Shown: positions 6,987-21,456 of the stretch, piece after piece
Numbering within the stretch: the first letter of the stretch is position 1
How the letters are laid out: each line of letters opens with the position of its first letter
Source of the DNA: a virus
DNA: 39,370 nt
Strand: one strand, 5' to 3'
IMG/VR virus record: IMGVR_UViG_3300050821_013520
Location: 1-39,370 of that record
Notes under the pieces: generated by a model
What the model was told of the DNA's origin: nothing
What the model saw: the letters and a program-made list of their open reading frames with translations, nothing else
The model's database searches: none
Translations under genes and position numbers: made by a program

Positions 6987-7486
6987 CCGGAGCCCAACTG
7001 CTAACCGCCTACGTGCACTACCAGACCACCGGCGACATGGACGCCCTCCTCACCTGCGTCCGCCGGTACGCCCTCCGCTGCAAACGGGACGAAGATTTGG
7101 CTCAGGAGGTCGTGCTCAAAGTGTGGGTGGCGCTCCAGGACGACCCTGTCATCCTGAGTTTCCCCGGATGGGTCCGCACCATCGTCGAGCGCTGTTGCAT
7201 CAACGAGTCGCTCCGGCCTCAGAATCGCTCCGTGCCCGTCGATGGCGGAGTCCTCGAAGGCCTCCTCAACCAGAGCATCGCCGCTCCCGTCCGGACCCCG
7301 GCGCTCTTCCACGATCTGATCACCAACGGCCCTCCGCAGGCGCGGGAGCTGCTGGCGAAAGCGGTGGCTGAGCACGCCGAATCTCTGTACGAAGCGGGCC
7401 GCATGCTCGGCATGACGGAGTATCAGGTGGAGTACCGCTCGCGGCTGCTTCGAAAATATTTGTGCGAGAAGTCGGCGACGGCATGA
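6983..7486 (+). CDS. Small sigma-70 family (ECF-like) protein encoded by the phage
   Basis: A 167-residue protein with a two-domain sigma-factor layout. Residues 36-48 (DEDLAQEVVLKVW) match sigma region 2.2, and FPGWVRTIVERCCINESLR (60-78) matches region 2.3-2.4. After a linker, residues 124-160 end in a helix-turn-helix (EAGRMLGMTEYQVEYRSRLL) like region 4. It would bind host RNA polymerase core and direct it to phage promoters. It starts in an ATGA overlap and is the last gene of the early operon. Its 3' end overlaps the first copy of a three-copy 35-bp element that could be its promoter target. The family is likely; the regulon is inferred. Confidence 0.7.
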   Translation: MTGAQLLTAYVHYQTTGDMDALLTCVRRYALRCKRDEDLAQEVVLKVWVALQDDPVILSFPGWVRTIVERCCINESLRPQNRSVPVDGGVLEGLLNQSIAAPVRTPALFHDLITNGPPQARELLAKAVAEHAESLYEAGRMLGMTEYQVEYRSRLLRKYLCEKSATA

Positions 7487-7504
7487 CTAACCCGGTCTAC
7501 GCCT
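7470..7504 (+). promoter_or_regulatory. Conserved 35-bp element, copy A
   Basis: AGTCGGCG at 7470-7477, 17 variable bases, then GTCTACGCCT at 7495-7504, with AT-rich DNA just before (AAAATATTT). The same two blocks at the same spacing recur at 13700 and 20702. Copy A overlaps the last codons of the sigma-like gene and lies about 100 bases before the membrane-protein cluster. A second GTCTAC follows at 7513. It may be a promoter with a 17-base spacer or a folded RNA element. Confidence 0.6.
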
Positions 7505-7542
7505 GTATCGATGTCTACTGACCTCCTCGGCAGCAGACTGAA

Positions 7543-7580
7543 GGCAGGGTTGAGTTGGCTTCCCAGTTGGCTCCCCTGCC
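7543..7580 (+). other. Hairpin in the leader of the membrane-protein cluster
   Basis: GGCAGGG (7543-7549) pairs perfectly with CCCTGCC (7574-7580), and an inner GAG/CTC pairing can extend it. The loop contains two GTTGGCT copies. No T tract follows, so it is more likely a leader structure than a terminator. The AAGGAGACC ribosome site begins 13 bases later. Confidence 0.4.
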
Positions 7581-7604
7581 GCCTCAAAATTTAAGGAGAC
7601 CAAC

Positions 7605-7760
7605 ATGGTCATCGCATTGATCGTCATCGCAGTCCTCGCCGTCATCGGCTACTTCATCTACAAGCACCGCGCCGCTGTCGAAGCCGCAGCCGAAGCAGAC
7701 GCTGCGAAGCTCAAGGCCGCAGCCGAAGCAGACCTGAAGAAGGTCGAAGCCAAGCTCTAA
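7605..7760 (+). CDS. 51-residue single-span membrane protein
   Basis: A very short gene. The first 18 residues (MVIALIVIAVLAVIGYFI) form one membrane helix. A basic YKHR follows, then an Ala/Glu/Lys helix with repeated AAEAD units that should be a coiled coil. AAGGAGACC precedes the ATG at good spacing, which supports translation. The stop overlaps the next ATG by one base (TAATG). With the following two membrane or exported proteins, this fits a lysis or envelope cluster, for example a holin partner or inner-membrane spanin. The exact role is unknown. Confidence 0.6.
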   Translation: MVIALIVIAVLAVIGYFIYKHRAAVEAAAEADAAKLKAAAEADLKKVEAKL

Positions 7761-8062
7761 TGGACGGCCAGCAGCAGACACCGACGACGAAGCCAGGCTT
7801 CTGGCGCGGTGTATTCTCAGACTCGGGCGAGCCCAGCAGCAGTCGTGTGCTGACGGTCGTCCTGTCCATTGGCAGCCTCGGCATCATCGTCGCGATCGTC
7901 GTGCACCTGATTCACCTCCACGATCCGGCGCAGCTCAGCCTGTGGCTTACCAGCCTGCCGGGCATCATCCTCGGCATGGTGGGGATGAGCAGCGCTCCAT
8001 ATACGGTCAACCGCGCATCCGGGTCGATCAGCGATATTTTCAACTCCCTCCGCAACAAATAA
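7760..8062 (+). CDS. Two-span membrane protein, holin candidate
   Basis: A 100-residue protein with a hydrophilic N-terminus and two probable membrane helices: VLTVVLSIGSLGIIVAIVV near 30-48, and WLTSLPGIILGMVGMSSA near 62-79. A short charged tail follows. Size and topology fit a holin or a small phage membrane protein. The gene overlaps its upstream neighbour by one base and is followed after 11 bases by a signal-peptide protein. No endolysin gene was recognised nearby, so the lysis role rests on topology and context alone. Confidence 0.55.
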   Translation: MDGQQQTPTTKPGFWRGVFSDSGEPSSSRVLTVVLSIGSLGIIVAIVVHLIHLHDPAQLSLWLTSLPGIILGMVGMSSAPYTVNRASGSISDIFNSLRNK

Positions 8063-8073
8063 ACGGACCAGAC

Positions 8074-8388
8074 ATGAAACTTTCTGCCATCGCCCGCTTC
8101 GCCGCGTCACTGTTCTTCGCCGCCAGCCTCGGCTTCTTCGCATCCGCAGCCCAGACACCCGCTGCTCCTAAGCCAACATCACCACCGGCGCTCACTCAAG
8201 TCGAGCAGCTCACCATCCAGAACATCCAGCTCCGCTACCAGCTCCTGCAGACACAGGAAGGACAGCTTCGCGCACAATACGCCGCGCTCGCCGCTCAGAT
8301 CGCCAAGGAATACCCCGGCTATGTGTTGGACCCGAAGACGAACACGCTCGTGAAGGCTACGCCCGCACCGGCACCTACAAGGAAGTAG
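8074..8388 (+). CDS. Exported coiled-coil protein, possible spanin-like
   Basis: A 104-residue protein. The first 26 residues (MKLSAIARFAASLFFAASLG, ending SAAQ) form a Sec-type signal peptide. A Pro-rich spacer and a helix rich in Gln and Leu (VEQLTIQNIQLRYQLLQTQE) follow, which should be a coiled coil. No lipobox cysteine is visible. The ATG was set at 8074 because CGGACCAGAC precedes it, a variant of the leader shared by other genes here; upstream sequence in frame belongs to the previous gene. It probably acts in the periplasm during lysis or assembly. Confidence 0.55.
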   Translation: MKLSAIARFAASLFFAASLGFFASAAQTPAAPKPTSPPALTQVEQLTIQNIQLRYQLLQTQEGQLRAQYAALAAQIAKEYPGYVLDPKTNTLVKATPAPAPTRK

Positions 8389-8501
8389 ACAAGTTTTGCT
8401 GCGGCGGCGTGGTGCGGCCAGGGAATCCCTGCGAATCCGAAGCGAAAAGTGACACGCGAGATAAGACACGAGCCGGTATCAAACCCCGGCCCGCAGCAGG
8501 T

Positions 8502-8696
8502 TCATTCCCACTTTTGGAGTGACTCGGGCGGGAACTCGCCCTTCTCCAATTTATGTTCACCTTTGCTGGCGGCAAACCAAGTGCACCAAACCAGTTTCTT
8601 GCCAGTCATCGCCTGCGTACCAGCCTGCGTGACGGTCATCACCGGACCACCTGACTTCAGCTTAACAACATCACCCGCTTTGAATTCTTCAGCCAT
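8502..8696 (-). CDS. YodC-like (DUF2158) small protein
   Basis: A 64-residue protein beginning MAEEFKAGDVVKLKSGGPVM, with VWCTWF in the middle and EKGEFPPESLQKW at the end. This is the hallmark pattern of the YodC/DUF2158 family: a small beta-rich domain with GDVVxLKSGGPxM, CxWF and FPPExL. Its molecular role is not established. GAGGAA lies about ten bases before the ATG. It is the only minus-strand gene in the rightward half of the phage, so it probably has its own promoter and could be expressed in the lysogen. Confidence 0.7.
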   Translation of the reverse strand: MAEEFKAGDVVKLKSGGPVMTVTQAGTQAMTGKKLVWCTWFAASKGEHKLEKGEFPPESLQKWE

Positions 8697-8762
8697 TACC
8701 AGCCGTTCCTCTGCCCGCAATCGTAACAGAGAAACAAAGGAAAGTAAGGAGACCAGACCAAC

Positions 8763-8987
8763 ATGATGATCGGCGTAGAAACGAACACCGGGTTCCACCA
8801 GCCGGAGAAGAAAGCCACGCCCGAGATCAGGACCGGAGTGCACTCGGTGCTCGGATACGATGGCGAGCGGCAACGGGCGATTGAAGCTGCGGAGCATATC
8901 CGCAGGCATGGCCAGTGTAGCTGTGACGACCCTCAGCGGCCCACCAATAGCTTAGGTGGTGGCCCCATCGCGGCCATACCCGCCTGA
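8763..8987 (+). CDS. Small hypothetical protein before the ParB-like gene
   Basis: A 74-residue protein without recognised domains. The middle (GERQRAIEAAEHIRRHGQCS) is helical and Arg-rich, and the C-terminus is Gly/Pro-rich. AAGGAGACCAGACCAAC directly precedes the ATG; this is the fullest form of the leader shared by several genes here and strongly supports translation. The stop overlaps the ParB-like start (TGATG), so the two are coupled. The gene starts just upstream of, and divergent from, the YodC-like gene. Confidence 0.5.
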   Translation: MMIGVETNTGFHQPEKKATPEIRTGVHSVLGYDGERQRAIEAAEHIRRHGQCSCDDPQRPTNSLGGGPIAAIPA

Positions 8988-9601
8988 TGCGCATCACCGA
9001 CCTGCAGCAGGACGATCGCAACGCCAACCGTGGCACCCCACGCGGCGCTGAGGCAATCGAAGCCTCCCTCCGTGAGCTGGGCGCGGGCAGAAGCGTTCTC
9101 ATCGATAAGGATGGCAGACTCATCGCCGGAAACAAGACGGTCGAGGCGGCCATCGCTGCGGGCCTCAAAGACGTTCTGGTCGTACCCTCGGATGGCTCCC
9201 AGATCATCGCGGTGCAGCGGACCGACCTTTCACTCGACGACGCGAAGGGCCGCCTGCTCGCTGTGGCCGATAACCGCAGCTCAGACCTCAGCCTCGACTG
9301 GGACGCCGACGTGCTGCTGGAGCTTTCGAAGGACATCGACCTCGATCCCTTCTTCACGCAGTCCGAACTGGATGCGCTCATGCCGACCGTCTCCGAGCTG
9401 GATGGCTCAGAGGACGAAACACCGGCGGAGCCCGAAGGTGAGCCCGATAGCCAAGCTCGGCGACCTGTATTTCCTCGGACGGCACAGGCTCCTGTGCGGG
9501 GATGCGACGAACCCGAACGACGTGGAGCGCTTGCTCGGAGAAAAGAAGGCGGAGTTCGTCTTCACCGATCCCCCGTACGGGATCAACATGCGGATGGATA
9601 A
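8987..9601 (+). CDS. ParB/sulfiredoxin-like domain protein, frame broken from the methyltransferase
   Basis: Residues 1-150 form a ParB-like nuclease or specificity domain of the type fused to phage DNA methylases: LQQDDRNANRGT, then an ERSLRELGAGRSVLI-like helix-strand, LIAGNKTVEAA and LLAVADNRSSDLS. After about residue 150 (EPEGEP) the frame leaves the normal protein and runs through out-of-frame sequence to a stop at 9601. The expected continuation (IAKLGDLYFLGRHRLLCGDA) lies in the next frame. Skipping one C in the CCC at 9442-9444 would restore a single ParB-methylase fusion. Either the gene carries a frameshift, or it is decoded by +1 slippage, or it has become two proteins. Confidence 0.7.
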   Translation: MRITDLQQDDRNANRGTPRGAEAIEASLRELGAGRSVLIDKDGRLIAGNKTVEAAIAAGLKDVLVVPSDGSQIIAVQRTDLSLDDAKGRLLAVADNRSSDLSLDWDADVLLELSKDIDLDPFFTQSELDALMPTVSELDGSEDETPAEPEGEPDSQARRPVFPRTAQAPVRGCDEPERRGALARRKEGGVRLHRSPVRDQHADG

Positions 9602-10136
9602 CGCGATCCCCGAGTGCCGCAACCGGATCATGGGTGACGACACCACCGACGTCGCAGCCGCTGCCTATCACCTCTGCACCGCGATGGATATCCCGATGAT
9701 CTTCTGGGGTGCGAACCATTACGCCGCCGACGCCCGGCTCCCTAACGCGAAGTGTTGGCTGTGCTGGGACAAACAGGAAAGCAACAATCACATCGACCAG
9801 AGTGACTGCGAATTTGCCTGGACGAACATCGACAGCCCGGCGCGTATCTTCCACCACCTGTGGGCGGGATTCAGACGCGACTCAGAGAAGGGTGAACGCC
9901 GTGTTCATCCTACCCAGAAGCCGGTGGCGCTCATCGTCGAAATCCTGGATCACTTTAAGGCGGGCAAGCGCGTGCTGGACCTCTTCGGCGGCTCGGGCTC
10001 GACGCTCATCGCGGCTGAGAAGACAGGGCGCTCGGCGTTCCTGATGGAGCTTGATCCGAAGTATGTCGATGTCATCGTAGCGCGGTGGGAGACGCTCACC
10101 GGTAAGAAGGCGGAGCGGGTCTCGCATGAGCACTGA
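9438..10136 (+). CDS. DNA adenine/cytosine-N4 methyltransferase
   Basis: A DNA amino-methyltransferase with motif IV TDPPYG before motif I (VLDLFGGSGSTLIAAE), the order typical of the beta class. The amino-transfer loop is DPPY, so the product is N6-methyladenine or N4-methylcytosine. WCTQKP-like HPTQKPVALIVEIL precedes motif I, as in related enzymes. If made separately it could start at GTG 9438, with GGAG nine bases upstream; otherwise it is the C-terminal half of a fusion with the ParB-like domain. No restriction enzyme is present, so it is likely an orphan phage methylase that protects or marks phage DNA. The target sequence is unknown. Confidence 0.85.
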   Translation: MSPIAKLGDLYFLGRHRLLCGDATNPNDVERLLGEKKAEFVFTDPPYGINMRMDNAIPECRNRIMGDDTTDVAAAAYHLCTAMDIPMIFWGANHYAADARLPNAKCWLCWDKQESNNHIDQSDCEFAWTNIDSPARIFHHLWAGFRRDSEKGERRVHPTQKPVALIVEILDHFKAGKRVLDLFGGSGSTLIAAEKTGRSAFLMELDPKYVDVIVARWETLTGKKAERVSHEH

Positions 10137-10380
10137 GAAGGGAAAGTCAGAATATATCCTCCGGTTGTTCGAGAAGGTGCTGGCCAACCCAACTTATCCC
10201 CAGCCCACGAATCCAACACGGGTTAAGAGGTACGGACGGCTGGCGGCGAGGCCATCCACATGGAGCGAGGGCAGTCTTCGGTCGGCATTCCAACTCGGGA
10301 TTAGGTACGGGATGGCGAGGAATCAACGGGCGGCATTTGAAAAGGGCATCCGATTTGCGAAAAACCGAGAGGACAAGTGA
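10126..10380 (+). CDS. Hypothetical basic protein after the methyltransferase
   Basis: An 84-residue basic protein (starts MSTEKGKSEYILRLFEKVLA) with no recognised domain. It overlaps the end of the methyltransferase gene by 11 bases and is followed by a 36-base gap before small terminase. The C-terminal half (LRSAFQLGIRYGMARNQRAA) is likely helical and amphipathic. Lysine and arginine richness would suit DNA binding, but nothing more specific can be said. Confidence 0.5.
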   Translation: MSTEKGKSEYILRLFEKVLANPTYPQPTNPTRVKRYGRLAARPSTWSEGSLRSAFQLGIRYGMARNQRAAFEKGIRFAKNREDK

Positions 10381-10416
10381 ACCGGAAAATTCGAAAGTGG
10401 GAAAGTAATCCGTGAC

Positions 10417-10992
10417 ATGGCGACGCTAAGTAAAAACGGGAAGAAGCTCGGCAGGCCGGAAATCCCTTATGAGCCTGAAGTTGGCGACGCTATTTGCGAG
10501 CTTCTGGCGACAACATCGAAGGGACTAAAGCAGGCGCTCGATGACGTGAATGCGAAGCTGCCAGCCGACAAACCTAAGCTGAGCCTGATTTCAATTTACC
10601 GCTGGATCGAGCGCAACGAGCCCTTTCGAGAGCAATACGCGCGAGCGCGGGAGCTTCAGGCCCAAATTCTGCACGATCACGCCCAGCATGAGGCCGAAAC
10701 CACCCGGCCCGCGATCCTGCGACGCAAGGGGAAGCGCGATGGGAAAGATTTTGAGGAGAGTTCTGTTTCCGACAACGTGCAGCGCTCACGTCTGATCGTG
10801 GACACGGAACTGAAGCGTGCCAGTCAGCTCTGGCCGAAGAGATTCGGCGAGCCAGGAAAGAACAGCGGCGACGGTGACGCGCCGGTGAAGATTCAGATCG
10901 AGCTGGTCGGCGCAGCTCCAAAGAGAGCGCCGAAGCCGCCGCCTGAGTTTTGCCTGACGCCAGAGATTCTGCAGTTACCAAAAGGTGATTGA
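10417..10992 (+). CDS. terS: Terminase small subunit
   Basis: A 191-residue protein of the helix-turn-helix type seen in phage small terminases. The N-terminal half carries an Arg-Pro start (GRPEIPYEPEVGDAICELL), an HTH ending SIYRWIERNEPFREQYARAR and a helical oligomerisation segment. The rest is basic and ends with a Pro-rich tail that may contact the large subunit. It would recognise the packaging site and regulate the large terminase. The large terminase is not next to it: a serine recombinase gene and a small gene lie between, which suggests an insertion. The assignment is supported by both motif and position. Confidence 0.75.
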   Translation: MATLSKNGKKLGRPEIPYEPEVGDAICELLATTSKGLKQALDDVNAKLPADKPKLSLISIYRWIERNEPFREQYARARELQAQILHDHAQHEAETTRPAILRRKGKRDGKDFEESSVSDNVQRSRLIVDTELKRASQLWPKRFGEPGKNSGDGDAPVKIQIELVGAAPKRAPKPPPEFCLTPEILQLPKGD

Positions 10993-11010
10993 TTCTGGCC
11001 TCTGATCCTG

Positions 11011-11044
11011 TTACGTTACTGCAACGGTCGTTGCTGAAACGTAA
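11011..11044. repeat. 16-2-16 imperfect inverted repeat before the serine recombinase
   Basis: Left arm TTACGTTACTGCAACG (11011-11026), central GT (11027-11028), right arm CGTTGCTGAAACGTAA (11029-11044). The arms match at 14 of 16 positions. There is no T tract, so it is not a terminator. The layout fits a serine-recombinase crossover site, which these enzymes cut with a two-base overlap, or an operator. It ends next to the recombinase ribosome site. Confidence 0.65.
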
Positions 11045-11061
11045 TGGGAGGCCGGAATCTC

Positions 11062-11748
11062 ATGGCAAATGGCAAGTATGTCGCTTATTACAGGGTATCT
11101 ACGCAGCGTCAGGGTGAGTCGGGCCTTGGCTTAGAGGGTCAGGAAGAGACGGTCACTCGCTATCTGAACGGCGGTAAATGGACGCTGGTCGGCGCTTTCA
11201 CCGAGGTTGAGACCGGCAAGCGATCGGACCGGCCAAAGCTGGCTGAAGCGCTGGCGGCGTGTAGGCGGCATCGCGCTACCCTCATTGTCGCGAAGCTGGA
11301 CCGCCTGGCCCGCAACACGAAGTTTCTCCTCACCGTCGTAGAAGGCACCGGTGACGCCGGTGTCGTGTTCTGCGACATGCCGGGGCTGCCCGAAGGGCCG
11401 GTTGGCAAGTTCATGCTGACGCAGATGGCGTCCGTCGCCGAGCTGGAAGCTGGCCTCATCAGTCAGCGCACCAAGGCCGCGTTACAAGCGGCGGCGGCGA
11501 AAGGCGTCAAACTCGGCGGTCGCCGCTCGAACAGCGCCGCGATCTGGCGGAAGGGCGTGAAAGCCCGCAAGAGCCGTGCCGCAGCCCTGGCTCACAACCT
11601 GAAGCCCATCATCGACGCCATCCGGGCCGAGGGCAAAGTCACCCTGCGTGACTTTGCCGCCGGGCTCAACCAGCGCAACATTCCCGCCCCACGCGGGGGC
11701 GAATGGAGCGCCACACAAGTTATGCGTCTGCTCGACGCCACCAGATAG
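11062..11748 (+). CDS. Small serine recombinase (resolvase/invertase family)
   Basis: A 228-residue site-specific recombinase. The catalytic serine is in YYRVSTQRQ (Ser13). Other resolvase-domain signatures are EVETGKRSDRPKL, LIVAKLDRLARN (active-site Arg residues) and FMLTQMASVAELE, followed by the long E helix. The C-terminal part (TLRDFAAGLNQRNIPAPRGG, then a short helix) is the DNA-binding domain of this subfamily. It cuts DNA with a two-base stagger through a 5'-phosphoserine link. GGGAGG ten bases before ATG 11062 decides the start. Sitting between small and large terminase is unusual for a phage. It could resolve multimers, invert a segment, or be the mobility gene of an inserted element. 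Confidence 0.9.
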   Translation: MANGKYVAYYRVSTQRQGESGLGLEGQEETVTRYLNGGKWTLVGAFTEVETGKRSDRPKLAEALAACRRHRATLIVAKLDRLARNTKFLLTVVEGTGDAGVVFCDMPGLPEGPVGKFMLTQMASVAELEAGLISQRTKAALQAAAAKGVKLGGRRSNSAAIWRKGVKARKSRAAALAHNLKPIIDAIRAEGKVTLRDFAAGLNQRNIPAPRGGEWSATQVMRLLDATR

Positions 11749-11754
11749 CACGCC

Positions 11755-11775
11755 GGTCTCCCGGCGCGGGAGACC
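11755..11775 (+). promoter_or_regulatory. Hairpin that hides a ribosome-binding site
   Basis: GGTCTCCC (11755-11762) pairs perfectly with GGGAGACC (11768-11775) over a five-base loop. The right arm contains the Shine-Dalgarno sequence of the 55-codon gene that starts at 11780. Folding would block ribosome entry unless the upstream ribosome or a protein opens it. No T tract follows, so a terminator is less likely. Confidence 0.55.
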
Positions 11776-11779
11776 AGCC

Positions 11780-11947
11780 ATGACTCAAGACGAAGCATTT
11801 GAACTCCTCCTCACCCACCGTAGCGAGTGGCTCGCACGGCAATGTGACGCCCGCTTTCCATGTGAAGACGGCACCCTCTGCTGCGTCCTCGAACGGGGGC
11901 ACAGCGGTCTTCATCGCGACTACACGGGCCGGGAACGGAGCGAGTAG
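11780..11947 (+). CDS. Small Cys/His-containing hypothetical protein
   Basis: A 55-residue protein. The second half has a metal-binding look (CDARFPCEDGTLCCVLERGH, then SGLHRD), with four cysteines and two histidines. The C-x-L-x-x-G-H-x-G-x-H pattern occurs in many small phage and actinobacterial proteins of unknown role. ATG 11780 is chosen because GGGAGACCAGCC lies directly before it, although it is inside a hairpin. The stop is two bases before the putative ATT start of the large terminase, so the two may be coupled. Confidence 0.55.
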   Translation: MTQDEAFELLLTHRSEWLARQCDARFPCEDGTLCCVLERGHSGLHRDYTGRERSE

Positions 11948-11949
11948 CC

Positions 11950-13680
11950 ATTCCCGCCAAAGACCCCCTCATCTCGCTGCAGCCGAAGCAGCTCCAGCTC
12001 TATGACTTAATCCGCGATCCGAAGACACTCGTCATCGGCGCGGGCGGCGGACGCGGCTCCGGCAAGTCATCAGGCCTCGACCGGGTGCTCATCCGCCTGA
12101 TGGCGGAACAGCCGGGCCTCCAGTGCACGCTGGTGATGCGCAACTGGGATCAAGTCTTCAAGTACCACATTGAGGAGATTCGCAAATCTTCTGACTTTCG
12201 GCCCCTGAATGAAAACCTGAAGGTCACGTCACCGGCCAGCCTGAAGATCGGCACCAGCCAGCTCGACTTCTCCTATGCCGAGAACCTTCAGGACGTCATC
12301 CGCCGGTTCCGCTCCGCCAACATTGACGTCCTGGTGGTGGACCAGTCGGAGCAGTTCACCGAGGCGGAAATCCGCGAAATGCGGCAGGCCGCCCGTAGCA
12401 AAAGCGGCAAGCCCGCGAAGCTGGTCCTCAGTTTCAACATGCGCGGGGCCGGGATCGACTTCCACCGCAACTGGTTCCACCTCCGGCGCGTCGGCGCTGA
12501 GGAGTCAGCCGACGATTTCCGTTTCGTCAAATACAACCCCTGGGATAACGCCCAGTGGGTGCTCACCGCCCTTGAAGAAGACGGCTACGCGGTCAAAGAG
12601 GACTACTACCAGTGGACGGATGAGCAGCGCAAGCGGTACGCGGCGAAGCGCGGCTCCTACACCAAGCAGCTCGCCTCGCTCGACCCCGTCGTTCGCAAAG
12701 CCGACTGGGATGGCGACTGGGATTCCATCGAGGGCACGTATTTCCAGAACAGCTTTGACCTCGACGCGACGCGCATCAGCGCCGGGAAGGTGGAGGCGCT
12801 CCGGAAGCCCACCGCGACCCATTGGATGTCTTCCGACTGGGGCAAGGCCCACTGGTGGCCCACGTACTGGCATTTCCGCGTCGGGCTTTCACCCTCCGAG
12901 GTTGAGACCATCCTCGGCTGGACCGTCGATGCTCCCCTCAATGTCACCGTCACGTACCGGGAGCTGATCAAGAATGAGGTGACGCCGGATCAGATGGCGC
13001 GGCTGCAGATCGCGGCGACGCCGGAGCATGAGCGGTCGCGCATCAGGGCCTACTTCCTGTCGCCTGAGCAAGTCACCGGCGAGCCCGGCTCTGTCGGTGC
13101 TCAGCAAGCCCGCGAGCTTCGCGCCGCCGGTATGCCCGGGCCGGCGAAGGCCGACAACGACCGCATCGGCGGCTGGTCCCTCATGGACCGATTGCTGCGC
13201 GGCACCAAGTACGCCGGGCATGACCCGACCACGCTCCGGATCACCTGCAACGCCTGCGGTCATTCCACCATTGCGCCCGCCGGGACCCATTCCAAGTGCA
13301 CCCGATGTGGCTCCATCAGCCTTCGCGCCGTCCCCTCGCAATGCAGCGACGTGTGGCTCATCTCCGCCGAATGTCCCGAGCTGCTGGAGTCGATCCCGAA
13401 GCTGATCCGGGACCCGAAGAAAATCGATGATTGTCTCCGGTTGGATGAAACATCTGCCCGGGTCGAGCAGGACATCGCGGACGCCGTGCGTTACGGCCTG
13501 AAGACGATGCTCGCCCCCCGCCGGAAAACCGCCGAGGATGAGTTCCGGGAGCGCATGGCCGCGACCGCCGACCCGGCCCAGCGCATGATGATCGGCGCGG
13601 CGCATGCCCTCCGGAAGAACAAGCCGAAGAGCTACTGGGCGCAGCGGTTCAAACAGGGAGCGCTGAAACGACCGCGATGA
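11950..13680 (+). CDS. terL: Terminase large subunit, probable ATT start
   Basis: The phage DNA-packaging ATPase-nuclease, about 576 residues. Walker A is GAGGGRGSGKS (residues 30-40). Walker B is VLVVDQSEQF, with Asp at about 131 followed by Gln. The nuclease domain starts near SSDWGKAHWW. Four cysteines (about 433, 436, 450 and 453; CNACG and CTRCG) form a zinc ribbon late in the protein, which is uncommon in terminases. The first ATG in frame (12085) lies after Walker A, so it cannot be the true start. No ATG, GTG or TTG exists between the last in-frame stop (11863) and Walker A. ATT 11950 has GGAG nine bases upstream and is the best candidate. Function is confident; the start is inferred. 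Confidence 0.85.
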   Translation: MPAKDPLISLQPKQLQLYDLIRDPKTLVIGAGGGRGSGKSSGLDRVLIRLMAEQPGLQCTLVMRNWDQVFKYHIEEIRKSSDFRPLNENLKVTSPASLKIGTSQLDFSYAENLQDVIRRFRSANIDVLVVDQSEQFTEAEIREMRQAARSKSGKPAKLVLSFNMRGAGIDFHRNWFHLRRVGAEESADDFRFVKYNPWDNAQWVLTALEEDGYAVKEDYYQWTDEQRKRYAAKRGSYTKQLASLDPVVRKADWDGDWDSIEGTYFQNSFDLDATRISAGKVEALRKPTATHWMSSDWGKAHWWPTYWHFRVGLSPSEVETILGWTVDAPLNVTVTYRELIKNEVTPDQMARLQIAATPEHERSRIRAYFLSPEQVTGEPGSVGAQQARELRAAGMPGPAKADNDRIGGWSLMDRLLRGTKYAGHDPTTLRITCNACGHSTIAPAGTHSKCTRCGSISLRAVPSQCSDVWLISAECPELLESIPKLIRDPKKIDDCLRLDETSARVEQDIADAVRYGLKTMLAPRRKTAEDEFRERMAATADPAQRMMIGAAHALRKNKPKSYWAQRFKQGALKRPR

Positions 13681-13699
13681 AAATTTATTTTTCTCCGTC

Positions 13700-13734
13700 A
13701 GTCGGCGCGGGACGCGGATGTCCTGTCTACGCCT
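13700..13734 (+). promoter_or_regulatory. Conserved 35-bp element, copy B
   Basis: AGTCGGCG at 13700-13707, 17 bases, then GTCTACGCCT at 13725-13734. It lies 20 bases after the large-terminase stop, behind an AT-rich run (AAATTTATTTTT). The middle can fold through GGGAC/GTCCT and the blocks through GGCG/CGCC. The ribosome site of the next gene begins two bases after the element, which is tight for a promoter. Confidence 0.6.
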
Positions 13735-13750
13735 GCAGGAGACCAGACCG

Positions 13751-13876
13751 ATGCATTGTCCTCGTTGTGACGAGAGCGACTTGTGGGATGCGTGTTATCA
13801 CCGCTGTCATCGTTGCGGCTTCAGCAACCCGGTGCCGGGCCGTCTCCAGACATTCCTGAGGATGCTGTTCGCATGA
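13751..13876 (+). CDS. 41-residue zinc-ribbon-like protein
   Basis: A very short gene encoding MHCPRCDESDLWDACYHRCH, then RCGF and a short helical tail. Two C-x-x-C pairs (CPRC and CHRC) plus an extra Cys and His make a zinc ribbon very likely. AGGAGACCAGACCG precedes the ATG, the shared leader of this phage, which supports translation. It starts 17 bases after copy B of the conserved element and overlaps the next gene by four bases (ATGA). Its function is unknown; small zinc ribbons often bind nucleic acid or protein partners. Confidence 0.6.
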   Translation: MHCPRCDESDLWDACYHRCHRCGFSNPVPGRLQTFLRMLFA

Positions 13877-14163
13877 CCTGGCTGAAGACCTTGATCGATA
13901 CGTTGTGTCCCTGTCGATCACACCTGGAGCGGGAAGTCGAATACCTCCGCGCACAGCTCGCGCAGCGTCAGCGCCGCGTCGATGAACTGCAGGAATCGCT
14001 GATCGAATCGCTGATCGAATCGAAGAATCCTCCGCTGCGTGGCCCGCGTCCGGAGCCGCCACCGCTTCTGCAGACGAAGCCCGTTGGCTGGGAAGCTTTT
14101 CGCGCCAGCCGGAAGGCCGCCGCGTCGCAATCTGCGGATGAAGCCGAGACGGCAGCATCGTGA
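13873..14163 (+). CDS. Hypothetical coiled-coil protein between terminase and portal
   Basis: A 96-residue protein. The middle (LEREVEYLRAQLAQRQRRVD) is a strong heptad coiled coil that ends in a duplicated SLIE unit (ELQESLIESLIESK). The C-terminal part is Pro-rich and then Ala/Ser-rich. No family is recognised. The ATG at 13873 overlaps the previous stop (ATGA), and the gene ends in a GTGA overlap with the next, so this is a tightly coupled run of small genes. An accessory role in head assembly is possible from position. Confidence 0.5.
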   Translation: MTWLKTLIDTLCPCRSHLEREVEYLRAQLAQRQRRVDELQESLIESLIESKNPPLRGPRPEPPPLLQTKPVGWEAFRASRKAAASQSADEAETAAS

Positions 14164-14357
14164 ACCCGTTCATGGAGCTGCGCCACGGTCTGATGCGTGC
14201 GGCGAAGGTTCGCCTGATGAGTATGGGCAGGAAGCCTACCAAACAAGCAGCGCGTGCCCTGGTGGATCAGCATTTTTCCAAACTGCGGGCGCGGATCAGG
14301 GAAGAGACGCCCGCTGAAAAGCGGGACGAAAGCGGCGCTTGCACCACGTCTATGTAA
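14160..14357 (+). CDS. Small basic protein, 3' end overlapped by a homing endonuclease gene
   Basis: A 65-residue basic protein starting with GTG (MNPFMELRHGLMRAAKVRLM). The body is helical and Arg/Lys-rich, with no recognised domain. It is coupled to its upstream neighbour by GTGA. The last six codons overlap the TTG start of the GIY-YIG gene, so its C-terminus (ACTTSM) may have been changed when that gene inserted. Its role is unknown. Confidence 0.45.
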   Translation: MNPFMELRHGLMRAAKVRLMSMGRKPTKQAARALVDQHFSKLRARIREETPAEKRDESGACTTSM

Positions 14358-14899
14358 TCAGTAACTCCGGTACGACGAAAAAGTACATCGGAAAGACTTC
14401 AAAGAACCTGGAGCTGTATTTAGGCGAGAATCTGCGCCGTGCTGCAAGAGGCAGCAGAAACAAACCCGCTCTCTTCAACGCCATGCGGAAGTACACCGAG
14501 GGCTGGCAAATCGAGTCCTTATTCGAGTTTGAGGATGAAAAACAGGCTTACAGAATAGAGCGGATGTTGATCGCTTTATTTGACACCAGGAATTGGGGCT
14601 ACAACATTGGCGCGGGCGGTGAGGGCGTCGATATGACGCCCGAAGTTAGGTCAAAGATTGGCGTCGCGTTGCGTGAGCAATATGCCACAGGAAAACGGAA
14701 GTGCCACCTCAAAGGAAGGCCCGCCTGGAATAAAGGAATAAAGACGGGGCCGTTGTCCGTTGAAACAAGACGGAAGATGTCCCGTAAGCATGTGAGTAAC
14801 AAACACAGGCAGAATCTCTCAATCGCCGCGAAAAGGCAGTGGGCCAGTGGTCGGGGATATAGATACAAAGTGGAAGGCAGGCAATATGAAAGCACTTGA
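14339..14899 (+). CDS. GIY-YIG homing endonuclease with NUMOD3-type repeats
   Basis: A 186-residue free-standing homing endonuclease. The catalytic module starts at once: HHVYVISNSGTTKKYIGKTS is the GIY...YIG pair in variant form. A conserved Arg (NLRRAARG) and Glu region (RIERMLIALF) follow. The C-terminal half has NUMOD3-like DNA-binding segments (SKIGVALREQYATGKRK, AWNKGIKTG, RRKMSRKHVSNKHRQNLS). Such genes spread by cutting copies that lack them. The start is TTG at 14339; no AUG fits. Codon use is more AT-rich than the neighbours, consistent with a late insertion. It overlaps the genes on both sides. Confidence 0.85.
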   Translation: MHHVYVISNSGTTKKYIGKTSKNLELYLGENLRRAARGSRNKPALFNAMRKYTEGWQIESLFEFEDEKQAYRIERMLIALFDTRNWGYNIGAGGEGVDMTPEVRSKIGVALREQYATGKRKCHLKGRPAWNKGIKTGPLSVETRRKMSRKHVSNKHRQNLSIAAKRQWASGRGYRYKVEGRQYEST

Positions 14900-15218
14900 C
14901 GGAACAGATTTCGGCAGCGCATCGCTCGCCATGGGCAGGCACAATCGCAAACTGCAGCGCTCGGGCTACAAGGCTCCGGCCAGCAGCTCCTACGGCGACG
15001 ACGGCTCCGAGCAGGATCAGGATCAGCCGCAGCCGATCACCGACAACCAGGATGCGATGGAATGCGTGGACAAGCTTCAGCAGATGGGCTACACCGCCGA
15101 CGATGTCGCACAGGCATTCGAGTCTCTGTCCGGCGAAGATCAGGATACCGATCAGGACGCATCGTCCGGCGCGGCATCCACGCAGGCAGCTCCGCTTCAA
15201 ATTCCCGGCCTCTCGTAA
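14886..15218 (+). CDS. Acidic hypothetical protein upstream of the portal gene
   Basis: A 110-residue protein, basic at the N-terminus (MKALDGTDFGSASLAMGRHN) and very Asp/Gln/Glu-rich later (QDQDQPQPITDNQDAMECVD). A UBA-like helix segment (CVDKLQQMGYTADDVAQAFE) is visible in the middle; this three-helix pattern usually mediates small protein contacts. ATG 14886 has GGAAGG about eight bases upstream and overlaps the end of the homing endonuclease gene by 14 bases. Possibly a minor head or scaffold-related protein; unproven. Confidence 0.5.
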   Translation: MKALDGTDFGSASLAMGRHNRKLQRSGYKAPASSSYGDDGSEQDQDQPQPITDNQDAMECVDKLQQMGYTADDVAQAFESLSGEDQDTDQDASSGAASTQAAPLQIPGLS

Positions 15219-15335
15219 GGCCGCTCTCAAGTTTGGGCTCGATGGTGTTGGCGTCGGTTCCTTCTTCGCATAGAAACCACAACCGCCGCCGCTTGTTCCT
15301 CGGCCCAGAAATTTCTCACTCTCTGGAGTTAGCCA

Positions 15336-15863
15336 ATGTCCAGCATCACCGTTTCCATCCCCGCTAAGTGGCGGGGTAACGCCGCGTTCGACCTCGTCAC
15401 GGTCAATACGCTGAAGGCCGCTGGAGTTCCGGCGGAGTTCATCGATCGCGGTCGCATCGTGCTCTCCGGCGAGGGCTCGCTGACCTCCGCCACCAAAGGC
15501 GACACCACGACTTACACCTTCACGCCGATTCCGCCTCCGGCTCCCACGCCCGATCCTAAGGACGCGACCATCTCTGACCTTCAGTCGAAGGTTGAGGCCG
15601 CTGGCGTGCTCGTCACCCAGCTTCAGTCCCGCGCTACCAGCGCCGAGAATTCGACCGACACCCTCAAGAACCAGGTGACCGCGTCCGAAGCGCAGATCGC
15701 AGAGCTGAAGACGGCCAACGCATCGCTGACCGAAAGCAACACGAAACTGGCCGCGCATGCCGCCGACCTTCAGGCGCAGATCAGCGCCGCCGAGGCTTCG
15801 CTGGCGAAGGCAGCCGCCGCGACCGAGACGCCCACCACCTCCGCGCCGATCCCGACTAACTAA
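15336..15863 (+). CDS. Hypothetical protein with long coiled coil
   Basis: A 175-residue protein. Residues 1-60 form a small alpha/beta region (SSITVSIPAKWRGNAAFDLV). A Pro-rich hinge (PPPAPTPDPKD) follows, then a long heptad coiled coil (from about 80 to 155). TGGAG lies about nine bases before the ATG. Its stop overlaps the portal start by one base (TAATG). It is not recognised; the position immediately before portal suggests a head-assembly accessory protein. The 117 bases before this gene hold no other gene or obvious signal. Confidence 0.5.
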   Translation: MSSITVSIPAKWRGNAAFDLVTVNTLKAAGVPAEFIDRGRIVLSGEGSLTSATKGDTTTYTFTPIPPPAPTPDPKDATISDLQSKVEAAGVLVTQLQSRATSAENSTDTLKNQVTASEAQIAELKTANASLTESNTKLAAHAADLQAQISAAEASLAKAAAATETPTTSAPIPTN

Positions 15864-18376
15864 TGGCCCAGATCGAAGATATCGAGAACCAGGATACCGA
15901 CCTGGTCGATGACGACGCCGAGTCTGAAGTCGTCGCGCGGGAGTACGCGCCCGGCGAATTAGCCCCGTCCATCGTCACGAAGAGCAAGGTCTGGAAACCC
16001 GACGACCTTCGCGACGAAGACATGCTCGACGTCACCACCGCCCTGCTCCGTTCCTGCTTTGAGTCCGATGAGCCGTGCCGCCGCTGGCAGGTGCTGGAGA
16101 CATGGGAACTCCGCATGTCGGATCGCGGTTATCAGCATCTCGAAAGTACTTCGGAGGGCGGATGGCGCGTCCCCGGGTCAGAAGATGAGCACTCGAATGC
16201 ACTGGCGAACATGAACGACGCCGGGGTATTCAGCACACCCATCTTGCCAAGCCAGGGCGATATCGCCATCGGATGCCTCAACCGTGGCGCGATCAAAGTG
16301 AACTTCACACCGAGGCGCAGCAAGCGCCCGCAGGATCGGGCCGCCGCCGAAGCCGCCAATGAGTACAAGTGGCTGTGGCAAAAAGTAAACGCCGATCTGC
16401 AGTTCGACCTGACCTCGATCGGATGGACCGACCCCCGCGTCATCACCTGGACGCGCACGATCGCCGACAAACGTTTCGGCCTTGATGAGGACGGCAATCC
16501 GCTGCAGGCGGAGCTGACGTCCCCGTGGGGCGTCCTCGAATCGCGTGCTCCGATGTTGGCCGGGAGCCTCAAAGAATGCGGATTCATCTCCCTGTTCGAG
16601 TCGCTCGACCACGGCCTCGCCCGCGCGGCGTATCCGTGGATGAACAAAAAGCTGAAGCCGTGCCTCAGCACCTTCGGCAATACAGATTTCGAAGCGATCG
16701 CCCGGATCAATACCCGCGTCGGCGTCGCAAGCCATCTCGCCGCCGGAATCTCCGGCCTGCGTGAAACCGGCATGGGCTACCACTGGATTCGCCCGGGCCT
16801 CTACTTCTCCGATTCTGTGAACGATCTGCAGCGGGAGTTCCTGCTGGAGAATTTTGAGAACGGGATGTTCCTCGTCACCGGCGGCCAGGAAGTTTGCGCC
16901 GTCTGGGAAGAATCGATGGACGACCACCTCGAAATGGGGATGTTCGTTCGCGGACAGGGGCAGAATCGCCGCGCCCTGGGCTCTTCCGATCTGCCGATCC
17001 AAAAGCGAATCAACTTGTGGATGGACCTTCTTGACCGGACTTTCCGCTCGGCGTCGCCGATCACCCTCTTGGAGTCGCAGGCGTTCAACACCGAGGCGGT
17101 CGCTTCGCTGGAAAACACGCCGAACCGTTTCCTCTCGGTTGCGCTCGATACCGCCAGTGGACAAACGATGGAGTCGGTTGTCGGACAGACACCGGTGTCG
17201 GCGGCCCCAGCCGGTCTCATGGAAACCCTGCAGTTTTTCGTGGGTCCGCTTATCCAGTCGATCGATGGTGCGACACCCGCGTTGTTCGGCGGCGGGGAAG
17301 GCACAGATAACACGGTCGGCGCGACGCAGATCAGGTTGCACCAGGCATTAGAGCGCTACGGCACGCCCTGGCAAATGGCGAACAAGGTCATCGCGCGTGC
17401 GTGCTGGCAGGCCGCTAAATGTTGCGGTGACAACCGTGAAGGCAACATCGAGGATTCCGCCGATGGCTACGGAGACGTGATCGTCAATCCCGAGAAGCTG
17501 CGCGGCGGTGAGTTCAACTGCATCGCTGAAACCCTGGGCGCTATCCCCGAAAGCGGTGCGCAGCGCGAAGCGAAGGTCCTTTCCATCCTCGACATGGCGA
17601 ATACCAACCAGCAGGTAGCTTCCATCGTCGCGACGCCGTCGAACGCCCGCGAGATTGTTGCGGCCCTTCACATTGAGGACGTGATCACGGTGGATGAGGC
17701 CGACTCAGAGGACAAACAGATGGAGGAAATCGAAATCCTCCTGAACTCTGAACCCCTGACCAACCCTGCATGGCAGACGTTGTCAGACGAAATCGAAAAA
17801 TTGAACGCCGTGCACGAACAGGCAAAAGCAGCAGCGGCCCAGCTCGTGCAGAACGGCGAAATTCCCGGCCCCGAGCTGATCGAGAAGGGTCAGCAGATGG
17901 AACAAGCGCTGACCGCGCTTCAGCAGCAGCTCGCCAACGTTCCGCAGTACCAGCCGTCTGTGCCGGTCGCTCAGGATGAGAGTGAGGATCACGCCACCGA
18001 AGCCGCGACGTTGTTTTCGTGGATGCAGAAACCGGATGGCCGCGCGATCCGCCGCAGAGCGGCGAAGGAAAAGCCCGGCGGCGACTTAGAAACCTCGCCT
18101 AACTGGGCTAAATTTACAAATTGCTTCCTTCACTGGCAGGGACACACGGCGATGGCCGCGAAGTTTGCGGCGCAGAACGCGCCGCCCGCGCAGCCGAAGG
18201 TCAGTATCTCGATCGATCCCTCGAAATTCCAGGGAGCGGCACAAGTTGAGGCGTTACAGAAAGCCGGGATTCAGGTCTCAGCACCGCCAACCGGCCAGCC
18301 TCACGAAATTGAGCAGGAAACTATTCAGCGTACACCGATGGCCGAGGTGAAAACGCGGGTTAGGCGGCGACTGTAA
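15863..18376 (+). CDS. Portal protein
   Basis: An 837-residue protein, the right size and position for a podovirus-type portal, the twelve-subunit ring through which DNA enters and leaves the capsid. An acidic N-terminus is followed by a globular body. The central region (RINLWMDLLDRTFRSASPIT, then SALFGGGEGTDNTVGATQIR-like) has the loop and stem features of portals. A helical, Gln-rich wing (EQAKAAAAQLVQNGE to about LQQQLANVPQ) and a long C-terminal barrel-like region follow. It begins in a TAATG overlap and is followed without a gap by a small gene. The assignment rests on size, place after terminase and these patterns rather than on a single diagnostic motif. Confidence 0.68.
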   Translation: MAQIEDIENQDTDLVDDDAESEVVAREYAPGELAPSIVTKSKVWKPDDLRDEDMLDVTTALLRSCFESDEPCRRWQVLETWELRMSDRGYQHLESTSEGGWRVPGSEDEHSNALANMNDAGVFSTPILPSQGDIAIGCLNRGAIKVNFTPRRSKRPQDRAAAEAANEYKWLWQKVNADLQFDLTSIGWTDPRVITWTRTIADKRFGLDEDGNPLQAELTSPWGVLESRAPMLAGSLKECGFISLFESLDHGLARAAYPWMNKKLKPCLSTFGNTDFEAIARINTRVGVASHLAAGISGLRETGMGYHWIRPGLYFSDSVNDLQREFLLENFENGMFLVTGGQEVCAVWEESMDDHLEMGMFVRGQGQNRRALGSSDLPIQKRINLWMDLLDRTFRSASPITLLESQAFNTEAVASLENTPNRFLSVALDTASGQTMESVVGQTPVSAAPAGLMETLQFFVGPLIQSIDGATPALFGGGEGTDNTVGATQIRLHQALERYGTPWQMANKVIARACWQAAKCCGDNREGNIEDSADGYGDVIVNPEKLRGGEFNCIAETLGAIPESGAQREAKVLSILDMANTNQQVASIVATPSNAREIVAALHIEDVITVDEADSEDKQMEEIEILLNSEPLTNPAWQTLSDEIEKLNAVHEQAKAAAAQLVQNGEIPGPELIEKGQQMEQALTALQQQLANVPQYQPSVPVAQDESEDHATEAATLFSWMQKPDGRAIRRRAAKEKPGGDLETSPNWAKFTNCFLHWQGHTAMAAKFAAQNAPPAQPKVSISIDPSKFQGAAQVEALQKAGIQVSAPPTGQPHEIEQETIQRTPMAEVKTRVRRRL

Positions 18377-18580
18377 ATGGCACGACTGAAAGCAGAAGAA
18401 CGGAAGCGCCTGCGCAGCAGCACTTTCGCGCTCCCAGGCAAGCGGGAGTTCCCGCTGGAGGATCGTGAACACGGCGAGAAGGCGCTACAGCTTCTGCCGA
18501 ACTCACACACGACCTCCGCAGAGAAGAAGCGCGTCCGCGCTGCGGTGCACCGGAACTTTCCCTCGATCGGATCGAAGTAA
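18377..18580 (+). CDS. Small conserved phage protein (FALPGKREFPL type)
   Basis: A 67-residue basic protein with the pattern STFALPGKREFPLEDREHGE, then ALQLL, then SAEKKRVRAAVHRNFPSIG. This short conserved domain (ALPG-x-R-x-[YF]-P-x-x-D, ending in VRxAVHRxFPSIG) is common beside portal or scaffold genes in phages of many hosts. Its role is not established. The ATG follows the portal stop immediately, with no gap. Confidence in a real gene is high; the function is unknown. Confidence 0.65.
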   Translation: MARLKAEERKRLRSSTFALPGKREFPLEDREHGEKALQLLPNSHTTSAEKKRVRAAVHRNFPSIGSK

Positions 18581-18583
18581 CCA

Positions 18584-19207
18584 GTGGCGAAGGCACATCT
18601 GGTTGGCTTCATCGCCAGGCATGGTGAAACCGCTGCAAATGCAGAGGACCGTTTTCGCGGCTGGCTGGACATCCCGCTCAACGATAAGGGCGTAAAGCAG
18701 GCGCACCAGGCGGCGGAGTTCCTGAAGGGCTATCCCATCAGGAACGTGATCTGCTCACCGCTGCTGAGGGCGTTTGTAACTGCGGATGTTATCGCCGCGC
18801 CGCGTAAGTTGCAGGTGGGACAACACCGAGGATTATTTCCCCTCGATGTCGGCGTCTTCAGCGGTTTGTCGAAGCCTGACAACCAGGCGGCGCTGCGGTT
18901 GTTCGTGAAGTCGCCCGACGTGGTGATCCCCGGCGGTGAGTCACTCGCCGATTTCGAAGAGCGCCAGTTCGCCTTCTGGGACACGGCTCTGAAGCTGGCA
19001 CGCGTGGCGGGCCTGACACTATTCGTCGCCCACACCAGCAACGTCATCGCCCTGCAGAACCTCACCGAGGACGGTGAGGCGATGGAGCCCGAAGACGGCG
19101 ATACGGTGAAGCCGGGCGGGATTGCAGCGATCTATTGGGACGGGCAGAAGCATCACGTCGAGCCGGTGTTCGGCCAGGCCGAGGCCGCACGTTTTGGGGG
19201 TTCATAA
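18584..19207 (+). CDS. Histidine phosphatase superfamily protein
   Basis: A 207-residue member of the histidine phosphatase (phosphoglycerate-mutase-like) superfamily. The catalytic RHGE is at residues 12-15 (IARHGETAANAEDRFRGWLD). SPLLRA(xxT) gives the second arginine motif, GGESLADFEER the conserved Glu region, and VAHTSNVIAL the second histidine. It would remove phosphate from an unknown substrate through a phospho-histidine. Start is GTG 18584, three bases after the previous stop. A metabolic-type phosphatase between portal and scaffold is unusual; it may act on a metabolite or a phosphoprotein during infection. Confidence 0.85.
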   Translation: MAKAHLVGFIARHGETAANAEDRFRGWLDIPLNDKGVKQAHQAAEFLKGYPIRNVICSPLLRAFVTADVIAAPRKLQVGQHRGLFPLDVGVFSGLSKPDNQAALRLFVKSPDVVIPGGESLADFEERQFAFWDTALKLARVAGLTLFVAHTSNVIALQNLTEDGEAMEPEDGDTVKPGGIAAIYWDGQKHHVEPVFGQAEAARFGGS

Positions 19208-19221
19208 CTCAGGAGACCGTC

Positions 19222-19377
19222 ATGCATTACCTGAAGTCCACGCCCTTTACCATCCCGGCTAACAACGGGAAGATCGCCCAGCTCGACTGGGATCGGGCTT
19301 TCTTAAGCCCCGAAGAATTTCGCCGGAAATACGGCGCAGAACCAACAGAACCAGGAGACCAGACCAATGGCCGCTAG
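19222..19377 (+). CDS. 51-residue hypothetical protein before the scaffold gene
   Basis: A small protein (MHYLKSTPFTIPANNGKIAQ, then LDWDRAFLSPEEFRRKYGAE) with no recognised domain. ATG 19222 is set by the CAGGAGACCGTC leader. The last 11 bases overlap the start of the scaffold-like gene, and the AGGAGACCAGACC leader of that gene lies inside this coding sequence. Position and coupling argue for a real gene; a role in capsid assembly is possible. Confidence 0.55.
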   Translation: MHYLKSTPFTIPANNGKIAQLDWDRAFLSPEEFRRKYGAEPTEPGDQTNGR

Positions 19378-20671
19378 TGTGCTTGATTTTTCCTCCCTCG
19401 ATACCACCACGGACGACGTCACCGACCAGTCCACTGACACCGACGTCGTCGATACCGACACCGATCACGATGCTGGCGGTGATGGCTCCGCCGATGCCGG
19501 TGATGGTGGCGGTGATGGGGCCGAAGCCGACGCTGGCGGCGAAGAAAAGCTCGATGGCCGCAAAGGCCCGCAGGCGATCCGCAATGCGGTGAAGGCGGCA
19601 TCCGACGCCGTTCCCGAACAGGCTGCCCGCCTGAAGGAAATGGCGAACGGCTACTTCCGCGAACAGGCGTACAAGGCGACTTTCGCCACACCGCAGGAAG
19701 CCGCTTCCGCGAAGCAGCTTATTGAGTCGGTCGGCGGCGTGGAAGGGATCGCGAAATTCCAGGAGCGCGATCAGATTTATCAGGCCCAGGACGCCATGTT
19801 CGAGGAGGGTAATCCCGAGGTCCTCGACGACTTCTTTGAGGATTTCCCGGATGGCGCTGTGGCACTGGCTCCGGCCTATCTGGATCGGCTGGCGAAGGTG
19901 AACCCAGAGGCATTGTCGGCAGCGGTGATGCCGCACGTCGTCGGCGTCCTGCAGGGAATCGGTTTCGACAGCTTCCTGCGCACCATGCACGCAGAGTCGG
20001 ACCCCGCGAAGTTCAAGGGACTGGTGGAACAGCTCTACAACTGGTTTGCGGGCGAGCATAAGAAGGCGGGCCAGCTCCGTCAGCCCGCTGCGAAGAATCC
20101 TGGCACCGATCGCATCAAGCAACAGCAGACCAAGCTGGATCAGGAACGCGAACAGCTCTTCAGCGATGGGGTCACGGCGAAGGTGCGGACCTCTACCGGC
20201 GCGGAGATGAGCAGTGTCGTCGATCAGCAGGCGAAGCGCTACGGATGGAACGACAAGCAGAAGGCCCATTACCAGAAGACGCTCGGACAGCGGGTTGTCG
20301 ATGCGCTGAACGCGGATGAGACCTATAAGAGCCAGCTCAAGATCAAGCAGAGCAGCAAGGCCCGCACCCACGACACGGTCGCGAATCATATCTCCGGAGC
20401 CTTCAACGAAAAGCTGAAGGACATGGCTTTCGACGTCGCCACCGAAATCTACGGAGCACCAAAGGGCGGCAAGGGTAAGCCCGGCGGCAAGCCCACCACC
20501 GGCGTGGTGAAACCCGGAACGCCGAAGACCGCGCCCGGCGGCGGCCCGATCCTCGTCAGCGCACAGCCGTCGCGTGAACAGGTTGACTGGCGGAAGCCGA
20601 ACGCTGAAGAGCTGTGGATCATGAACCAGGCCTGGCTGAAGAGCGGGCGGTTCGTCACCTGGAAGGACTAA
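19367..20671 (+). CDS. Probable capsid scaffolding protein
   Basis: A 434-residue protein with a highly acidic, Asp/Thr/Gly-rich N-terminus (about residues 8-60). A helical, Gln/Lys/Ala-rich body follows, then a Gly/Lys/Pro-rich linker (KGGKGKPGGKPTTGVVKPG) and a short basic C-terminus ending WLKSGRFVTWKD. The place between portal and major capsid, the helical composition and a charged C-terminus are typical of scaffolding proteins that guide capsid assembly and are then removed. AGGAGACCAGACCA precedes the ATG. No protease motif is seen. Moderate confidence, from context and composition. Confidence 0.55.
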   Translation: MAASVLDFSSLDTTTDDVTDQSTDTDVVDTDTDHDAGGDGSADAGDGGGDGAEADAGGEEKLDGRKGPQAIRNAVKAASDAVPEQAARLKEMANGYFREQAYKATFATPQEAASAKQLIESVGGVEGIAKFQERDQIYQAQDAMFEEGNPEVLDDFFEDFPDGAVALAPAYLDRLAKVNPEALSAAVMPHVVGVLQGIGFDSFLRTMHAESDPAKFKGLVEQLYNWFAGEHKKAGQLRQPAAKNPGTDRIKQQQTKLDQEREQLFSDGVTAKVRTSTGAEMSSVVDQQAKRYGWNDKQKAHYQKTLGQRVVDALNADETYKSQLKIKQSSKARTHDTVANHISGAFNEKLKDMAFDVATEIYGAPKGGKGKPGGKPTTGVVKPGTPKTAPGGGPILVSAQPSREQVDWRKPNAEELWIMNQAWLKSGRFVTWKD

Positions 20672-20701
20672 CCAGGCCCCTCACAAATTATTTTGCGACT
20701 T

Positions 20702-20736
20702 AGTCGGCGAGATGGCTTTCCATCTTGTCTACGCCT
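20702..20736 (+). promoter_or_regulatory. Conserved 35-bp element, copy C
   Basis: AGTCGGCG at 20702-20709, 17 bases, then GTCTACGCCT at 20727-20736. It lies 30 bases after the scaffold stop, behind AT-rich DNA (AAATTATTTT). The middle is a perfect hairpin, AGATGG-CTTT-CCATCT, filling 16 of the 17 spacer bases. It sits before a homing endonuclease gene and, further on, the major capsid gene. Confidence 0.62.
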
Positions 20737-20796
20737 ACAGAAGAAGAGTTTGCGGAAGTAATTAAGATCAGCCGGGCTTATTCGGTATTAACCTTC

Positions 20797-21425: not shown

Positions 21426-21456
21426 TTGCTCCGAAACCAGACCAGACAATGACCAG

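Follow-up and report, generated by a model that had tools for sequence, protein, structure and literature searches.

Promoters read by extracytoplasmic function (ECF) sigma factors carry CGTC at positions -13 to -10 (PMC3397946), and those of the ECF41 group follow the pattern TGTCACA-N16±1-CGTC (PMC3426412). Xpf of the Bacillus subtilis prophage PBSX is listed as a 20-kDa group IV positive control factor with sigma2 and sigma4 (PMC10141391). Here we analyse 39,370 nucleotides of viral DNA (IMG/VR record IMGVR_UViG_3300050821_013520; this whole stretch is called the window) from a prophage residing in its host's chromosome, in which a bipartite element, AGTCGGCG-N17-GTCTACGCCT, occurs three times. 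How is this element read? In the account we favour, which we hold at about even chances, the three copies are promoters of an alternative-sigma type that are probably read by the phage's own ECF-like sigma factor, encoded at 6983-7486. Read as promoters, the copies would form a family within a known class, the ECF-type promoters; so far this family has been found in one phage.

The element is like ECF41 promoters (PMC3426412) in being bipartite, in having GTC in both boxes and in having few targets, near the sigma gene. The spacing from GTC to GTC is 24 in the element and 23±1 in ECF41 promoters. The element differs from them past the GTC of its -35 box, in lacking a C before the downstream GTC and in its longer conserved 3' block. 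The phage protein of 167 amino acids (aa) ends right after a region resembling a helix-turn-helix (HTH) and lacks the large C-terminal extension of ECF41 proteins. Xpf, too, is a small sigma from a prophage, with a supposed role in turning on late genes; the two are likened by size and predicted layout only, and the host phyla differ.

Promoter/stem-loop cassettes (PeSLs) join an early promoter to a terminator stem-loop. They belong to T4-like phages and mediate gene shuffling, according to Arbiol 2010 and Comeau 2014 as cited in PMC4503421. By that secondary account the element resembles them as a short repeated promoter-plus-hairpin unit, lying between genes and tied to inserted accessory genes. 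It differs in that its stem, where present, lies between the boxes, in having no terminator and only three copies, and in its association with late genes; its links to inserted genes recall the PeSLs, though it does not appear to fit their definition. Morons as a rule carry a terminator and promoters of the host type. As PMC7067206 describes them, moron loci are accessory loci of temperate phages, and the likeness is that of an extra gene among core genes with its own promoter-like signal; here, however, the late block has the same signal, suggesting that the inserted genes are expressed late and not in lysogeny. An earlier note on this DNA held that no known feature explains the element. That was too strong, because ECF-type promoters and the T4 cassettes are close analogues.

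Transcription control in phages of acidobacteria-like hosts is little known. If our favoured account is right, the phage pairs a sigma factor with a sharply defined promoter family, and accessory genes join the late regulon by bringing the regulon's own promoter with them. If the element acts as RNA instead, it is a phage RNA element that has not been described.

Three exact copies of a bipartite element

The element has exactly three exact matches in the window, all on the + strand (Table 1), and no match on the - strand. It does not occur in 100 dinucleotide shuffles of the window, and a simple calculation (one gap, one split) gives about 2e-8 such triples in a random 39.4-kb sequence. When every bipartite word of 6+6 letters with a gap of 4-30 was ranked, it was the top triple on the + strand. 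No site in the window has one to four mismatches, so the edges of the element are sharp. With spacers of 15-19 and up to six mismatches allowed, the next best sites have five mismatches and are of the number and quality found in random sequence; the family therefore consists of the three perfect copies only. On these four grounds (shuffles, expected count, word ranking and mismatch scan) we reject a chance origin. The earlier note had described 18 fixed bases with a 17-base gap at three places, far beyond chance, and both parts of that description hold.

Outside the blocks the copies have only scattered letters in common, among them an A three bases past the 3' block; the central 17 bp are unrelated among the three, and no longer homology was found within 700-900 bases of them. 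The motif GTCnnCG is present in both blocks (GTCGGCG and GTCTACG), 24 bp apart.

An AT-rich run lies at about -17 to -8 before every copy and, over the three, takes in bases 8-20 upstream. The AT total of the three copies at the same offset was reached by none of 20,000 random triples and none of 20,000 triples near gene stops, which upholds the earlier observation that each copy stands behind such a run. Also confirmed is the placing of the copies within or just past the sigma-like, terL and scaffold genes, at the distances given in Table 1.

The window begins with a probable host flank (an ABC transporter fragment and FliS). Next come a tyrosine integrase and leftward replication-type genes (2582-6275); the rest, from about 6300, is a rightward block. 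In it, a short early group ends with the sigma-like gene, and the genes past copy A are lysis-like, terminase, portal, scaffold, capsid and tail genes. TerL and an open reading frame (ORF) resembling a Zn-ribbon protein flank copy B; copy C is flanked by the scaffold gene and an ORF of the MUG113/T5orf172 family, after which comes the capsid gene. By our own gene table, with the MUG113 start set at 20761, non-coding DNA makes up 3.7% of 6983-39151, and copies B and C wholly, and half of copy A, fall inside it.

Table 1. Copies of the element, the AT-rich runs before them, predicted transcript starts and adjoining genes, in window coordinates
Feature	Position	Strand	Remark
Copy A	7470..7504	+	exact match; first 17 nt belong to the 3' end of the sigma-like gene
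Copy B	13700..13734	+	exact match; 20 nt past terL stop; 6-pair spacer stem (G-U included)
Copy C	20702..20736	+	exact match; ~30 nt past scaffold stop; 6-pair Watson-Crick spacer stem
AT-rich run before copy A, AAAATATTT	7453..7461	+	putative UP element
AT-rich run before copy B, AAAATTTATTTTT	13680..13692	+	putative UP element
AT-rich run before copy C, AAATTATTTT	20685..20694	+	putative UP element
Predicted transcript start, copy A (base A)	7507	+	ECF -10 numbering (PMC3397946) and sequence
Predicted transcript start, copy B (base A), 14 nt before ATG 13751	13737	+	ECF -10 numbering (PMC3397946) and sequence
Predicted transcript start, copy C (base A)	20739	+	ECF -10 numbering (PMC3397946) and sequence
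Small sigma-like protein of 167 aa, put forward as reader of the element	6983..7486	+	Sigma70_r2 match; region-4-like HTH predicted
Possible 27-aa ORF directly 3' of copy A	7511..7594	+	
ORF after the 27-aa ORF, followed by later late genes	7605-7760	+	weak Rz-spanin-like match
41-aa CxxC/CxxC Zn-ribbon-like ORF, headed by copy B	13751..13876	+	
MUG113/T5orf172-family ORF, headed by copy C	20725..21315	+	start uncertain; TTG 20725 lies inside the element

Promoter-like anatomy and the phage sigma-like protein

If the GTC of the 3' block is set at -12 to -10, the 5' block falls at about -37 to -30 and the AT-rich runs at about -57 to -45, the usual place of UP elements. AGTCGGCG would then be the -35 region, GTC(TAC) the -10 region and the upstream run an UP element, and transcription would start about 10 bases past the GTC, at the A common to all copies. 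RNA polymerase carrying the phage's small ECF-like sigma most likely reads the element. After induction, the early rightward operon would yield the sigma factor, which would turn on the late block from copy A, with a boost at copies B and C. These two copies would have come with, or been put before, accessory genes inserted among the core morphogenesis genes.

Several observations favour this account. The GTC of the -10 box is invariant in 3/3 copies, as it is in ECF promoters. All copies lie on the strand of late transcription and mostly in non-coding DNA, and copy A marks the junction between the sigma gene and the late block. No sigma-70-type promoter pattern was found in 6000-22000, though shuffles of it give only 3.4. 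Most relatives lack both the sigma and the element. Promoters for the phage sigma were the first inference of the earlier note, and of its two readings this is the better supported, by position, strand, intergenic site, AT-rich run, ECF41-like geometry and the A at +1. The repeats, their positions, the AT-rich runs, the region-2 match of the sigma and the insertions described below are observed; promoter activity itself, the start sites and the pairing with the phage sigma are what we infer from sequence.

The protein matches Sigma70_r2 (PF04542) at 26.4 bits, where the curated Pfam cut-off is 24, and also matches phrog_1740. It is homologous to acidobacterial ECF sigmas (E=6e-17 with a hidden Markov model built from these). 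Residues of about 130-160 align to ECF region 4 and to a Fis-like HTH, with no profile passing, and the C-terminal 35 residues look like an HTH of the region-4 or Fis type. No relatives of this sigma were found in IMG/VR or in phage records. A single close relative, G408, has a phage sigma, directly before its terminase genes; by the same sigma profile the other relatives have none, except for an ORF near the distant prophage L229, possibly a host gene.

Other observations weigh against the account. The protein reaches only 24.5 bits with the NCBIfam model TIGR02937 (sigma70-ECF), over residues 24-81, against a threshold of 42.9, while the G408 homologue passes at 43.3 bits. No profile confirms its region 4, its AlphaFold model is too poor to use, including for a fold search (predicted local distance difference test, pLDDT, 50), and DxxR, reported to read -12G, is degraded here to N-E-S-L. 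On the DNA side, 18 invariant bases are more than an ECF sigma usually requires; the base preceding GTC is G, T and T in copies A, B and C, not C; and the -35 box lacks the common AAC core and resembles only the TGTC... of ECF41. Hairpins in the spacers of B and C are not explained by a promoter, and G408 has a sigma and no recognisable element. Finally, copy B would leave a leader of merely 14-16 nt (predicted start 13735-13737). The earlier note had found the promoter reading strained at copy B, so near the next ribosome site. The leader would indeed be short, but it still holds GGAGACC, the phage's usual ribosome site, which also precedes several of its other genes, with the Shine-Dalgarno sequence at its very 5' end; the objection is weaker than it seemed, and a leader of 14 nt would be short yet possible.

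Inserted genes and rival explanations

Relatives were collected by terminase and portal searches; they share the late module at about 45-58% protein identity. The eight close-relative contigs are G405, G406, G408, G409, G412, L125, L198 and L199; L195 is a shorter fragment. In seven of them an orthologue of the gene that starts at 13874 in the window begins right at the terL stop or no more than about 35 nt past it. The window has 193 nt (13681-13873) at this point, holding copy B and the Zn-ribbon ORF, and this segment is absent from those seven. The gap between scaffold and capsid genes is about 210-480 nt in five relatives; copy C and the MUG113 gene bring it to 857 in the window. Because both gaps are shorter in relatives, copies B and C each head a segment that is inserted with respect to them, a point absent from the earlier note. 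The comparison covers these two copies; none of the relatives is comparable at copy A. Scans for relatives of the capsid and MUG113 genes found none.

Related phages were where the earlier note proposed to look for the bipartite pattern, and it is absent from the eight close-relative contigs. In IMG/VR the full pattern has one match, inside a coding gene; among the matches listed for a loose pattern there are only coding-type chance matches, and the five matches to a variant including the AT run are all inside long open frames. Among 396 sampled acidobacterial genomes there are four matches, all in one conserved, apparently coding stretch. Forty distant relative prophages, from the class of a Bryobacterales metagenome-assembled genome (MAG), contain no element, save one 13-base look-alike, in L257 near a capsid gene. 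In L126, a AGTCGGCG accompanied by an inverted repeat of 17 nt follows terL. Like the look-alike, it has no full second block and is located in or close to coding DNA, and we take both as chance. A de novo search of the relatives for bipartite repeats found nothing comparable in intergenic places.

Does the element work as DNA or as RNA? As a structured RNA, its GGCG and CGCC would pair around a variable inner stem and display GTCTA as a bulged recognition loop for an RNA-binding protein of phage or host, serving antitermination, processing or translation control in late read-through transcripts. We rate this as unlikely but worth keeping in mind. GGCG/CGCC is able to close a structure in all copies, the blocks are constant while the spacer varies, and the spacers of B and C each contain a stem of 6 pairs, the two stems being unrelated in sequence (p=0.014 each against random spacers, G-U allowed). 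With Watson-Crick pairs only, B has 4 pairs (p=0.11) and C has 6 (p=0.002); by our own after-the-fact estimate, roughly 5e-4, the two stems are jointly suggestive. The hairpin of the earlier note survives in these copies and fails in A, where the best spacer stem has 3 pairs and is unremarkable (p=0.77; range ~0.5-0.8). Whole-element folding energy is ordinary in A (p=0.73) and marginal in B (0.10) and C (0.06). The element has no match in Rfam, the upstream AT-rich runs would have no role, and no relatives carrying the element, in which stems could covary, were found. Nor does the element look like a terminator: no T-run lies past the stems, and no terminator-like hairpin was found at it.

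The same promoter-like anatomy would serve a different reader, either a host ECF sigma or a transcription factor with a bipartite site. The degraded -10-reading motif of the phage sigma and the GTCnnCG common to both blocks speak for this, and we think it rather unlikely all the same: since the 396 acidobacterial genomes have it only in the one conserved, apparently coding stretch, the genomes sampled contain no host regulon that uses it, and copy A's place at the end of the sigma gene points to the phage's own factor. Very unlikely, in our view, is that the element is no promoter and marks the boundary of a mobile cassette, as a signature of recombination or insertion on the left side of accessory genes. 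Copies B and C do stand at the left edge of segments missing in relatives, and the phage encodes a serine recombinase (11044-11748) and several GIY-YIG-like genes. However, apart from 12 bp that coincide in coding DNA, nothing at the right edge of either segment matches; the three copies differ in their centre, the place where strands would be exchanged; and no insertion can be demonstrated at copy A. A site for a serine or tyrosine recombinase was rejected, the central 17 bp being unrelated among the copies. Our order of preference thus runs from promoters read by the phage sigma through an RNA element and another reader to a cassette boundary. Doubtful, too, is a self-spreading late-promoter cassette, in which a sigma promoter whose spacer tolerates or requires a hairpin would be copied before new genes, which would enter the late regulon on arrival.

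Other features of the window

At two places the expected gene start lacks ATG, GTG and TTG: terL (about 11950-11965) and the MUG113 gene (20761). Both have ATT codons at the expected start, behind purine-rich stretches that resemble ribosome sites. An imperfect 29-bp direct repeat (CGTCGCGCAC[T/C]AGAC...) at 21303-21382 reaches from the end of the MUG113 gene into the capsid leader; it is perhaps a trace of the MUG113 insertion. Two further late-region ORFs, at 14339-14899 and 36681-37640, are GIY-YIG nuclease-like and probably encode homing endonucleases. Between portal and scaffold lies a histidine-phosphatase-family gene (18584-19207; 42-66% identity in relatives), which is unusual for a head-morphogenesis module. 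The words ACTTCG/CGAAGT are repeated at about 6220-6345, between the leftward and rightward early genes, and look like repressor operators.

In G406 and G408 (L207 ~12080-12190 and L208 ~10640-10760) the capsid gene is preceded by a long non-coding leader that is highly conserved and may form stems. The only Rfam match near it is a sub-threshold one to the S15 leader (E=0.013), and the window's own 213-nt capsid leader (21316-21528) cannot be aligned to it. Prophages in the class of G008, the Bryobacterales MAG, commonly contain portal homologues of this phage family, with 59/399 genomes having them.

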